A DNA stretch of 50,491 nt. It comes from a virus. A program made the position numbers and the translations under genes. The notes beneath the pieces are model-generated. The model was not told where the DNA came from and did not search any database. It saw nothing but the letters and a program-made list of their open reading frames with translations. The stretch covers positions 1 through 50,491 of IMG/VR virus record IMGVR_UViG_3300021356_000030. The stretch is one strand, 5' to 3'. Below are positions 15,463-50,489 of the stretch, piece by piece (position 1 is the stretch's first letter; every line of letters begins with the position of its first letter).

Positions 15463-17010
15463 TTATACAGTTGGTGGAGTGAATGTTCTGACCAGTTGCG
15501 GTCGAACTAACGCAATCTTATCCCTGTTAACCAAGGCATCAATAGAGGTTTTGTAAGTATCCGTCATAATCCTGGGGAACAATCCAATTCCAATGATGGG
15601 AACCAAAAGACAACTAATGATGTAGATCTCTCTGGGTTCTGCATCAACAAGGTTTGTGTGATTGACAAGTTCCAAGTTCTCTTTACCAAAGAAGATTTCC
15701 CGCAACATGGACAGGAGATAAATCGGAGTCAGGATCACACCGATCGCAGCAAGAATACAAATGAATGCACGGAAAGGAACAGAATACATCGTATCAGTTG
15801 CAAATCCAGCAAAGACCATCAGTTCACTTGCGAATCCACTCATACCTGGCAGTGCCAAGGATGCCATGGAACACACTACCCACATTGCAAACATGATCTT
15901 CATACTCTTACCAACTCCACCCATTTCAGCGAGTTCAAGAGTATGAGTCCTATCGTAGGTTGCACCCACAAGGAAGAATAGAGAAGCACCGATCAGACCG
16001 TGACTGACCATCTGAAGCATCGCACCACTCGTTCCGAGGGCACTGTAACTACCGATGCCAATGAGAACGAATCCCATGTGACTGATCGAACTGTATGCGA
16101 TCTTCCGTTTGAGATTCCTTTGTGCAAAGGACGTGAGTGCAGCATAGATGATATTAACAACACCAAGGACGATAAGGACTGGAGCGAATACTGAATGTGC
16201 ATCAGGCAAAAGTTGACAGTTGAATCGCAGAAGTGCATATCCACCCATCTTCAACAGAATACCTGCAAGCAACATGTGAACTGGTGCAGTTGCTTCACCG
16301 TGTGCATCGGGTAACCAAGTATGCAAAGGCACGATTGGAAGTTTGACACCAAAGGCAATCAAGAATCCTGCATAACACCAGAGTTGGAAGTTCTTAGGAA
16401 ATCCCTGATTCATAAGGTAAGTGTATTCAAAGTTCGGAGCACCGTTGGATGCCCAAAATCCCATTGCAAGTCCTGCAATAAGAATGAATAGAGAACTACC
16501 TGCGGTGTAAATAATGAACTTAGTCGCGGCATACTGGCGTTTCTTACCACCCCAGATCGCCAACATCAGATAAACAGGAACAAGTTCCAACTCCCATGAT
16601 AAGAAGAATAGAATAAGATCCTGAACTGCAAAGACTGCAATCTGACCACCATCCATCAACAGGAGGAGGAAGTAAAACAGTTTTGGTTTGAATCTAAGAG
16701 GCCACGCAGCAAGTGCTGCAAGACTCGTAATAAAACTCGTCAGAAGGATCAGAGGCATCGATAGACCGTCTGCACCCACAGACCAAGTTAGACCTAGTTG
16801 AGGTAACCAACTAATCCTCTCAGACATCTGTAGACCGCTTACTGAGGGATCATATCCATTCAGATACCCAGCAACGGTAATTAGAAACGTGATCAACGTG
16901 ATTGATAGTCCATACCACCGAACAACTTTCCCGTCTCCTTTATCAGGCAGAAGAGGGATACCAAGTGCGGCAGCAATTGGAAACAATATTGATAAACTCA
17001 ACCAAGGCAT
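15463..17010 (-). CDS. ndhD: NAD(P)H-quinone oxidoreductase (NDH-1) subunit D / chain 4
   Basis: A 515-residue polytopic membrane protein of the NuoM/NdhD antiporter-like family, about the length of cyanobacterial NdhD1. Key residues for proton translocation are intact: E140 in [10 protein letters not shown]223 in FGVKLPI, K254 in LLKMGGY and E396 in GFASELMVF, together with the [12 protein letters not shown] loop. In the host it belongs to the NDH-1 complex of cyclic electron flow and respiration. It is unlike its neighbours: a single gene with terminators on both sides and its own near-consensus promoter, the mark of an acquired moron. The ATG is the first in frame and [11 protein letters not shown] is the normal N terminus. 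An auxiliary metabolic role is inferred. Confidence 0.95.
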
Positions 17011-19749: not shown

Positions 19750-20880
19750 TTATCTAATAATATCTATCTCATCAGGATTTGAATTCCAAGTCTCTACCTT
19801 GGTACGGAGTCTACCTTCAGACTTCAGTTTCTCATATCGATTAGATGCTTTCTTCTTCCACCACTTAATCAAGTTCTCGGTATGGAACTTTTCATAATTT
19901 TGGCCAGGAGTAAGAGTTTCTTGTTCACCCATAATAACTTCACGAGCGTTGCTGAATCCATAATCAGACATGTAGAAACGTTTTTGTTCAGTCAGGTTTT
20001 TTGCACTTACAATCGCAGTTGTGAACTCCGCAACCTTGTGAGAAGGTAAGCTTTTCTTGATCACTGCGATCATCTTCTGTTGGGTTTTGAGTTTGCGACT
20101 GGATGCGTCTTCCTTCACCAGACTCTTGTCCCCATTGCGTGCTATGAACCATTTGTTTAACTCCTGAAAGATTTCATCATGTAGGAGAGGCGTGAAATCA
20201 CTCTGTGTGAGTCCTTTATATCTCATGTATGGTTTGAGACCGTCATACTGCGAGGAGGACTTTGTAGACCCGTAGAGCGACGTTGTTTCAAACAGACAGA
20301 TGTCTGCGTCATACTTACTATTTAATGTCTCACGGGCCTGATGAGAACAACACAGGAGCGCCAGGAGTTTACCACCCAGATAGTTGAAACCGAATGGTTG
20401 AGTCGGGACAATAATGAATCCCATGATCGCATGACGATTGAATCGTGTCAGTTCTGGAACACTACCCAACCACTCATTGCGAGGTTTACTATTAATAGTA
20501 GGAGAACCAAATCTACAGAATCCTAAGATCTTATTTGTGTTCATTTCTTTGACAATCCACTTCAAGGACTTACCAGGAATGGAGTCTTCAATAGCGTGAG
20601 ATGTAGTGACTTGCAATCTCTCGCTAAAGTATTCGTTACTAAAACCACCCTTGACACCTGCAGGATACACTCGGATGTCCATGTCTTGGGGGTGCATATC
20701 AAATGCGTCAAACATATCATCCTCTGGACCCATACCCAGAATGGATGTTTGCATTTGACTCATTCTGTCAAGTTTCACATTACGCAGATATTCATCGATA
20801 CGTCCCATGTTAGAGAAGTAATCGATGAATTTGTCAGCTGCATAAATTGCATCATCAAGTTCTAATTGCATATCAAACAA
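19750..20880 (-). CDS. Putative DruA/DUF4338-like protein (376 aa)
   Basis: The central segment resembles DUF4338: KILGFCRFGSPTIN, NEWLGS, RHAIMGFIIVPTQPFGFN, YLGGKLLALLCCS, then DICLFETTSLYGSTK and YDGLKPYMRYKGLT. DUF4338 includes DruA of the Druantia anti-phage system, whose chemistry is unknown. I assign this from pattern only. The C-terminal part is basic. It sits in the early replication operon and overlaps the Sm-like gene by 8 bases. Confidence 0.45.
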   Translation of the reverse strand: MFDMQLELDDAIYAADKFIDYFSNMGRIDEYLRNVKLDRMSQMQTSILGMGPEDDMFDAFDMHPQDMDIRVYPAGVKGGFSNEYFSERLQVTTSHAIEDSIPGKSLKWIVKEMNTNKILGFCRFGSPTINSKPRNEWLGSVPELTRFNRHAIMGFIIVPTQPFGFNYLGGKLLALLCCSHQARETLNSKYDADICLFETTSLYGSTKSSSQYDGLKPYMRYKGLTQSDFTPLLHDEIFQELNKWFIARNGDKSLVKEDASSRKLKTQQKMIAVIKKSLPSHKVAEFTTAIVSAKNLTEQKRFYMSDYGFSNAREVIMGEQETLTPGQNYEKFHTENLIKWWKKKASNRYEKLKSEGRLRTKVETWNSNPDEIDIIR

Positions 20881-48408: not shown

Positions 48409-48636
48409 CTACCAATCAGGATATTCCCAATAAACTTGTTTATTTTTAGTTCTTGATATTCTAATTCTCTTCACAGTACACTCTTTACATTCATAAGAAT
48501 ATGCGGATGGTAGAGTACCTCGATCTTTTCTTGTTAGATAAAAATCATTCAACAAATTTTTTGTTTTACCACAAGATCTACACTTCCTTTCATTGAGAAA
48601 TAAGTGTTCTAGTTCAAATGACTCTTCAAAAGTCAT
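48409..48636 (-). CDS. Zinc-ribbon small protein (75 aa)
   Basis: Two CxxC pairs (C19-x-x-C22 in KCRSCGKTK and C50-x-x-C53 in YECKECTVK) about 28 residues apart form a zinc knuckle, with a basic C terminus (RIRISRTKNKQ). It resembles the zinc-binding half of HNH-type proteins but no HNH catalytic His is present. It overlaps the gp17 stop by one base. It may bind nucleic acid during packaging; that is inference. Confidence 0.72.
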   Translation of the reverse strand: MTFEESFELEHLFLNERKCRSCGKTKNLLNDFYLTRKDRGTLPSAYSYECKECTVKRIRISRTKNKQVYWEYPDW

Positions 48637-50282
48637 CAGTTATACTCCCACATATATGACATATCACCATACTCATCTGTCTTCCATATTGTTCCATCAT
48701 TTTCTACGATGGTTCCTTCATCATCCAAACCATCACTGATAAATCCAAATGGTGCCATGTCAGCTTCAATCTGATCCCTTTGATCTTCATATATTTTTTT
48801 ACGAACATCGTTGTCCGTCATTTCTTTAAAGTAATCCTGTTGAACTAACCATGCAAATATAACAAGACACATTGCAAGGTCATCATTACAACCTTCTTCT
48901 GCCTCAAATGAACCTGACTTTTGAATGAATGTAGTTAACTCACTGATTACATCTAGATCAGATACAAGTAACTTGTCGTCCTCAATTAATGCTTTTAAAT
49001 TTAGAGATCCAATCTTCTTTACGGTCTTGGACATCTTGACACCTAATTGTGTCTTCTTACCTGAGAATCCTTGACCAACTACTTGGCCTGCACGACCCCT
49101 CATGGAACACATGAGTATATTGTCATACTCCAAGTCCATATGAATGATGGATGCTACTTGATCTCCAATGTCATTAACTTCTACTAATATGAATGCCTGA
49201 TTATATGCCTTCGATACATCTCTGATGATGTTCGGAAACAAGATTGGTTTGATCGTATTATTTCTATACTTAGCAACTAATCTATAGGGAAATGACGTTG
49301 TGTCACATACACAAAATGCAGAGTAGTCTTTTTCTACACCTCTTGCAACGTCAACGGTAACAACATATGTGTGATCTTCTTTTGGTTCTTCATAGATATC
49401 CAATCCTGCATTTCTCTTGATTGGATCATCATAAACAAGAGACTTTAATTTCGCTGCGGTAATCAAAGTATCAATAGATCCTAAGAACTCGCACTCAAAC
49501 TCAATTTTGAACTGTTGTTCTGATGTGTTCTTAATTGTTTGTTCTTTCCACTCCAAATCCCTACCAGGGACTTCGGACCAGTGAACATCAGTTGGAATAT
49601 AATCGTTCTTACTCTTTTCCGCATCATGCCACATACGGTAGAAGTGATTCATACCGTGTGGGGTGGATACGATGATTACTTTGGTGTTTTTACCAGAAGT
49701 AATAGTAGGATAAACAGAGGCAAAGAAGTCATCAGCAACGTGATTTGGGACGAACGCGAACTCGTCGAGAAAGAGGACGTTGAATGACATACCTCGGACA
49801 GCACTTGCAGACGTAGAAGCTGCCAATATCTTACTGCCATTTTCCAACTCCATCGATCCTTTGTTCCAGGCTATAATACCCTGTTGCATCCATTTAGGTA
49901 AGTTCTCGTATGCAGTTTGTAACCTTCCGAGAAGTTCTCTTGCGGTTGCCGCCTTGTTTGCGAGAATACCAATGTTGACACTATCGTTGAAAACTGCATA
50001 GTGCAAAAGATAAGACACCACGGTGGTAGACTTACCCGTCTGTCGTGGCATCTTACAGATATTAAATCGATTCTCATGAAATCGATTAATCAGTTTCTCT
50101 TGGAAATGATATGGATGGAATTGTGTTAAACCTTCGTCTAGTGAAACAATCTTGATATAATTGTTTGCGAAATAAACAGGATCTTCTTTACACTTGAGGA
50201 ACTCAATAACCTGTTCCTCTGTAAATTCAATCGGTGTATTCGCTTTTTTTAGATTAGGATTACCAAGATATACGTCACTCAT
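48636..50282 (-). CDS. gp17: Terminase large subunit gp17
   Basis: A DNA-packaging motor of 548 residues: Walker A CKMPRQTGKSTT (about 77-87), Walker B VLFLDEFAFV (about 169-178), coupling motif IIVSTP, and a C-terminal RNase H-like nuclease with VTVDVARGVEKDYSAF and the later conserved acidic residues. It docks on portal gp20 and cuts concatemers. The start at 50282 gives a normal N terminus for cyanophage gp17. Confidence 0.97.
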   Translation of the reverse strand: MSDVYLGNPNLKKANTPIEFTEEQVIEFLKCKEDPVYFANNYIKIVSLDEGLTQFHPYHFQEKLINRFHENRFNICKMPRQTGKSTTVVSYLLHYAVFNDSVNIGILANKAATARELLGRLQTAYENLPKWMQQGIIAWNKGSMELENGSKILAASTSASAVRGMSFNVLFLDEFAFVPNHVADDFFASVYPTITSGKNTKVIIVSTPHGMNHFYRMWHDAEKSKNDYIPTDVHWSEVPGRDLEWKEQTIKNTSEQQFKIEFECEFLGSIDTLITAAKLKSLVYDDPIKRNAGLDIYEEPKEDHTYVVTVDVARGVEKDYSAFCVCDTTSFPYRLVAKYRNNTIKPILFPNIIRDVSKAYNQAFILVEVNDIGDQVASIIHMDLEYDNILMCSMRGRAGQVVGQGFSGKKTQLGVKMSKTVKKIGSLNLKALIEDDKLLVSDLDVISELTTFIQKSGSFEAEEGCNDDLAMCLVIFAWLVQQDYFKEMTDNDVRKKIYEDQRDQIEADMAPFGFISDGLDDEGTIVENDGTIWKTDEYGDMSYMWEYN

Positions 50283-50286
50283 AAAA

Positions 50287-50454
50287 TCACATGTTTGCTA
50301 TAGAACTTATTACTTCCTGTTGTTTAAAGTAGAGTTTTAAATAAGACTTCGCGAACTCTCTCGCTTCAGTTAGAGTCATCTTATCAATCTCTCTAGCCTG
50401 ACGTTCATATTCAAGTGCTTTTGACAAATTTGAAAGTTCGATGTCGTCTTGCAT
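50287..50454 (-). CDS. NblA-like small protein (phycobilisome degradation adaptor), candidate
   Basis: A 55-residue ORF with an excellent AAGGAG site 6 nt before the ATG. With one gap it follows the NblA pattern: IELS at residues 5-8, a helix, then M26 in the MTLTEAREF segment (NblA has MS-x-x-Q-A-K/R-D-F), and a second amphipathic helix ending KLYFKQQ. NblA recruits Clp protease to phycobilisomes, and functional viral versions are known from marine cyanophages. It lies just upstream of gp17, where a small terminase might be sought, but it does not resemble T4 gp16. The match is by eye only. Confidence 0.5.
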   Translation of the reverse strand: MQDDIELSNLSKALEYERQAREIDKMTLTEAREFAKSYLKLYFKQQEVISSIANM

Positions 50455-50456
50455 AA

Positions 50457-50489
50457 TCAACTCCTTGTAGAAACAATAATTGGTTTACC
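50457..50489 (-). other. Possible C-terminal end of an upstream gene
   Basis: The frame reads GKPIIVSTRS then TGA, ending just before the NblA-like Shine-Dalgarno region. It is open to the window edge and could be the tail of another protein, perhaps gp16, but it is too short to identify. Confidence 0.3.

Follow-up and report, generated by a model that had tools for sequence, protein, structure and literature searches.

A 55-residue protein encoded by a T4-like Synechococcus myovirus, a predicted helical hairpin, is a member of a phage family annotated by others as NblA

The stretch of DNA analysed here (the window, a record of 50,491 bases) comes from a T4-like Synechococcus myovirus, of which it is a fragment, and the small protein encoded close to its end belongs to a family of cyanomyovirus proteins to which others have given the name NblA. 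As this label was published earlier (for S-SCSM2R and in PMC9602691), the gene adds a further, new sequence to a family already described, PHROG 27081. The product is a small, selectively maintained, predicted helix-loop-helix protein of T4-like Synechococcus phages, whose gene is tightly packed with terL in the clade of the window. Two defining features of NblA, a match to the profile PF04485 and the helix-1 motif, are missing from it, and we have therefore not filed it as an NblA member. An NblA-like role in dismantling the host antenna is plausible, with a likelihood that we place somewhat below one half.

The open reading frame runs on the minus strand from an ATG to a TGA (50454..50287) and specifies a product of 55 aa, MQDDIELSNLSKALEYERQAREIDKMTLTEAREFAKSYLKLYFKQQEVISSIANM. 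A Shine-Dalgarno sequence, AAGGAG (50461..50466, minus strand), is located 6 nt 5' of the ATG, and AAGGAG or AAGAAG is found at the equivalent spot in most contigs of the window clade. The TTG at 50460 is an alternative start that would yield 57 residues, but it would abut the Shine-Dalgarno sequence, and we therefore prefer the ATG. Four bases, TTTT, lie between the TGA and the ATG (50282) of terL, which encodes the terminase large subunit (48636..50282, minus strand; PF03237 1.6e-23, PF17289 4e-13, phrog_2) and is a neighbour, not part of the function. The earlier note, made from the letters alone, had described a 55-residue frame with a strong Shine-Dalgarno sequence, and start, signal and length were all borne out; its two motifs, IELS near the start and M[ST]xxxA[RK][DE]F in mid-protein, are likewise present, as residues 5-8 and, in the form M-T-x-x-x-A-R-E-F, residues 26-34. 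An AlphaFold2 monomer model based on 25 contig sequences (mean pLDDT 86, pTM 0.50) predicts a helix-loop-helix, with helix 1 at residues 7-24 (50383..50436, minus strand) and helix 2 at residues 28-53 (50296..50373, minus strand). The best-conserved stretch of the family in the alignment, KLYFKQQE (residues 40-47; 50314..50337, minus strand), lies within helix 2 and overlaps a DUF7212-like stretch.

The frame and its start, the PHROG match, the identity to an S-SCSM2R protein and the signs of purifying selection confirm that it is a real gene. Relatives were found at 51 viral-contig loci and in 23 phage records representing 17 distinct isolates, every one of the 23 being a Synechococcus phage or a 'cyanophage'. 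Comparison of the window gene with contig L031 gave a dN of 0.07 and a dS of 0.76, and with contig L024 a dN of 0.04 and a dS of 0.57, whereas for S-SCSM2R dN was 0.12 and dS was near saturation. Judged from these substitution rates, with dN/dS well below 1, the gene is under strong purifying selection. That so short a frame arose by chance, for which its shortness is the one argument, is hardly credible given the Shine-Dalgarno sequence; conservation across the 51 loci and the isolates, together with dN/dS, led us to reject this option. The residues that are invariant in the family alignment (I5, K40, Y42, Q46 and E47) are mostly in helix 2. The M[ST]xxxA[RK][DE]F pattern is restricted to the window's own clade; other members have, for example, DVETLKEML at that place. 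When bacterial and archaeal genomes were scanned for copies in hosts, only two 'Euryarchaeota' MAG contigs (L063 and L064) came up, and the divergent nblA-like genes of picocyanobacteria, cited from Nadel et al., were not among the results. These are probably mis-binned cyanophage contigs.

The isolate nearest to the window is S-SCSM2R, with 78% nucleotide identity and 59% of a 25-kb stretch covered. The hairpin protein matches PHROG 27081 with an E-value of 5.5e-17 (residues 5-54 on profile positions 4-54 of 59), a family marked 'unknown function' in the PHROG library. The S-SCSM2R protein SSCSM2R_118, 87% identical to the window protein, was annotated 'NblA' by its depositors, and the S-SCSM1 relative is likewise annotated NblA. 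In PMC9602691, ORF237 of S-SCSM1 was named nblA via HHpred and cyanomyovirus homologs were reported; that paper cites Nadel et al. 2019 both for the nblA of S-TIM5 and for functional tests on marine metagenomic nblA genes. The same paper reports that the metagenomic marine phage NblA clusters with podovirus sequences, so that the functional evidence would not be directly transferable to the family of the window.

The profile check named in the earlier note went against its NblA proposal. PF04485, with a curated cut-off of 25 bits, gave no match in the window protein, the 11 isolate genomes or the 239-kb contig, and the positive controls (the NblAs of the freshwater phages PaV-LD and Ma-LMM01 and those of S. 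elongatus and T. vulcanus) were all matched. In the NblA alignment L7, E10, Q11 and F13 are invariant and constitute the helix-1 motif L-x-x-E-Q-x-F; it is missing from the window protein, which has IELSNLSKALEYE, and from the consensus of the family alignment, IELxxxSKxFEYE. A highly conserved N-terminal motif of NblA has been reported to contact ClpC. The fold check fared better, as the predicted AlphaFold2 monomer has an NblA-like helical pair; it follows the layout of NblA, a helix-loop-helix of about 60 residues, which is common to many unrelated hairpins. Searches of the PDB with the sequence and with profiles gave no match, and Foldseek (PDB, BFVD) and VIA-align returned nothing usable for a hairpin of 55 residues.

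Other comparisons revealed a weak similarity. An HMM based on 38 canonical NblA sequences placed proteins of the window clade at ranks 1-10 among 1,282 ORFs drawn from the same kind of loci, the top one with 14.0 bits (E 0.003) and the window protein at rank 5 with 9.5 bits (E 0.07). In the reverse search with the family HMM the NblAs came at rank 53 of 1,060 (7.7 bits), soon after the block of DUF7212 proteins and above most other ORFs. Alignment of the family to canonical NblA by hhalign was in register, with a probability of 4-10% and scores of 16.7-19.3, as high as which 1-2 out of 200 column shuffles came; the score drops once podovirus NblA sequences are added. At the C-terminus, I52 stands opposite L51 of NblA and, when the alignment is extended, N54 opposite K53, in a region where the alignment is unreliable. 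In Anabaena NblA, L51 and K53 reportedly form the C-terminal phycobiliprotein-binding motif.

The NblA-like label of the earlier note thus survives in part: it has the depositors' annotation, PMC9602691, the predicted fold and the weak HMM similarity on its side, and a PF04485 match and the EQ-x-F motif are lacking. In favour of an NblA-like role we count the length and layout of NblA, ranks 1-10 in the HMM search, the in-register profile alignment, the annotations in S-SCSM2R, S-SCSM1 and PMC9602691, the hosts of the 23 Synechococcus phage or cyanophage records, which possess phycobilisomes, and the scatter of the homologs over unrelated genome positions, in part amid metabolic genes. Against it we count the missing PF04485 match and L-x-x-E-Q-x-F motif, the low hhalign probability, the position of the invariant residues in helix 2, the better local match to DUF7212 and the packing among late genes in the window clade. 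If the role is real, the protein would act as an NblA-like adaptor, probably as a dimer, that loosens the host phycobilisomes or passes them to the Clp protease, and the loss of phycobilisomes would free amino acids and cut the light input during infection. Lacking the NblA helix-1 motif, such an adaptor would need other residues for its contacts to Clp and the antenna, most likely on the conserved face of helix 2.

The same helix connects the family to DUF7212 (PF23848). Comparison by hhalign gave a score of 30.6 (P 9e-6) that was reached by 0 of 200 shuffles, and the top non-family matches of the family HMM were DUF7212 proteins, with E-values of about 1e-4. DUF7212 itself is found in 377 phage records, nearly all of Synechococcus phages or cyanophages, and has no similarity to NblA by hhalign. 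Together with the helix-2 position of the invariant residues, this argues for a cyanophage-specific helical hairpin with a function unrelated to NblA, a distant relative of DUF7212 that binds some other host or phage protein via the shared helix-2 motif K-x-Y-x-K-L-Y-F-K and owes the NblA label to generic hairpin similarity. We regard this explanation as almost as likely as the NblA-like role. The similarity, which takes in the helix-2 stretch D-x6-x-K-x-Y-x-K-L-Y-F-K, covers only 19 residues and may be convergent, the N-terminal halves cannot be aligned, and the NblA profile still puts the window clade first. Moreover, the DUF7212 profile (curated cut-off 27 bits) does not match the window protein, the best family member reaching 15.2 bits. 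It is conceivable, if less likely than not, that the published cyanomyovirus 'NblA' is no NblA and constitutes a separate host-takeover family of helical hairpins, distantly related to DUF7212, that acts on a host complex via helix 2, its conserved part, and carries an SH3-like fusion in some phages. At a group of loci (L040, L044, L045, L046 and L056-L061; e.g. L044:1969-2370) the hairpin protein has a further domain of some 70 residues, phrog_3426, fused to it at the C-terminus, which has an SH3/KOW-like look in a low-confidence model (pLDDT 64) and no significant match in the PDB.

The genomic context raises the question of packaging. In the longer contigs L012 and L023 the hairpin gene is located between an ORF of 451 to 737 residues and terL; the stop of the upstream ORF ends two bases before the hairpin ATG, with the Shine-Dalgarno sequence inside the upstream gene. 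This upstream ORF measures 451 aa in L012 (2643-3998) and 737 aa in L023 (1785-3998), a difference in length between close relatives that is due to internal insertions or deletions. In S-SCSM2R the NblA gene is found one small gene upstream of terL. A comparison of L017, L020 and L022 with L018, L019 and L021 showed that after the hairpin gene some have an extra small gene of the kind found in S-SCSM2R (ATGAATATAGTAAAATTATTAGG or similar), whereas others have terL directly, which represents a presence/absence difference between near-identical phages. The possibility that the frame is a fragment of TerS was rejected, as S-SCSM2R has a separate TerS gene upstream and L023 a 142-aa ORF in the same place.

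The position immediately ahead of terL in the window clade, and that of the homologs in S-SM2, Bellamy, SynMITS9220M01 and S-SRM01 before the neck genes gp13/gp14, would fit a small late protein that takes part in virion assembly or packaging with its neighbours. This is improbable, considering that S-TIM5, S-SCSM1, Sf-FS3, S-B43 and DSL-LC03 have the homolog in unrelated regions that are not structural, the first four of these and S-SKS1 having it amid small and metabolic genes. Moreover, a related TerL is present in 438 'Synechococcus' or 'Cyanophage' records as against the 23 with the hairpin gene, so that the protein is not needed for assembly. Occurrence in several unrelated positions, some amid metabolic genes, is as expected of an accessory gene; the varied positions and the 23 versus 438 records therefore speak for a movable accessory gene that is not a part of packaging, with terL as a probably incidental neighbour. 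In the window clade this neighbourhood would nonetheless predict late expression.

The ndhD that the earlier note had mentioned is real (PF00361 1e-63): the window gene at 15463-17010 (minus strand) encodes a full-length NdhD-type subunit of NDH-1. Among phage records this protein has three close matches and no others, NdhD of S-SCSM2R at 90% identity and proteins of S-8S53 and S-8S56 at 85%. S-SCSM2R carries the hairpin gene and ndhD together, as does the window, and the combination is therefore not new; any coordination of the two is speculation. Elsewhere in the window, between phage replication genes, a protein (19750-20880, minus strand) matches the DruA (Druantia) domain PF14236 at 1.2e-9, with weak PADLOC matches to DruA.

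If NblA-like, the protein would place a further marine myovirus among those that may dismantle the antennae of their hosts, as already anticipated in print. Caution is in place with an 'nblA' annotation in myoviruses that goes without EQ-x-F and without an NblA profile match, and it needs testing before it is counted among the auxiliary metabolic genes. The marine viral NblA whose activity is cited alongside the myovirus 'nblA' belongs, according to PMC9602691, to a different (podovirus) branch.

In comparison with NblA itself (PF04485; Anabaena 1OJH, T. vulcanus 2Q8V, S. elongatus 3CS5, PaV-LD), the window protein shares the length, the helix-loop-helix, the IELS-like start and the MTxxxAREF stretch, but it lacks EQ-x-F and a profile match, and its helix 1/loop is one residue longer. 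The conserved residues are in helix 1 in NblA, whereas they are in helix 2 in the window family. The NblA-type proteins of marine cyanopodoviruses (S-CBP1 and relatives) are, like the window protein, small putative NblAs of marine cyanophages, but they keep EQQF, and similarity to the window family is not detectable; the S-CBP1 protein clearly matches canonical NblA in the profile-profile test (score 39, P 9e-8). The EQQF-bearing ORFs, mostly unnamed, lie beside an exonuclease gene in S-CBP1 (NC_025456, 12063-12227) and relatives, and extend even to podoviruses of Prochlorococcus, for example P-SSP7, the hosts of which have no phycobilisomes. DUF7212, a small protein of T4-like cyanophages, has K-x-Y-x-K-L-Y-F-K near its C-terminus in common with the window family, whereas its N-terminal half (GGRP...LLLISEMEG) does not align. 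Closest are the cyanomyovirus 'NblA' proteins of PHROG 27081, with identities to the window protein of 87% (S-SCSM2R), 55% (S-SCSM1 ORF237) and 49% (S-TIM5 F417_gp189) at 88-96% query cover. Sequences of the window clade have one residue less in the loop, where they read TLTEAREF, and in S-SCSM1 and S-TIM5 the gene occupies another genome position, but the KLYxKQQE core is common to all of them.
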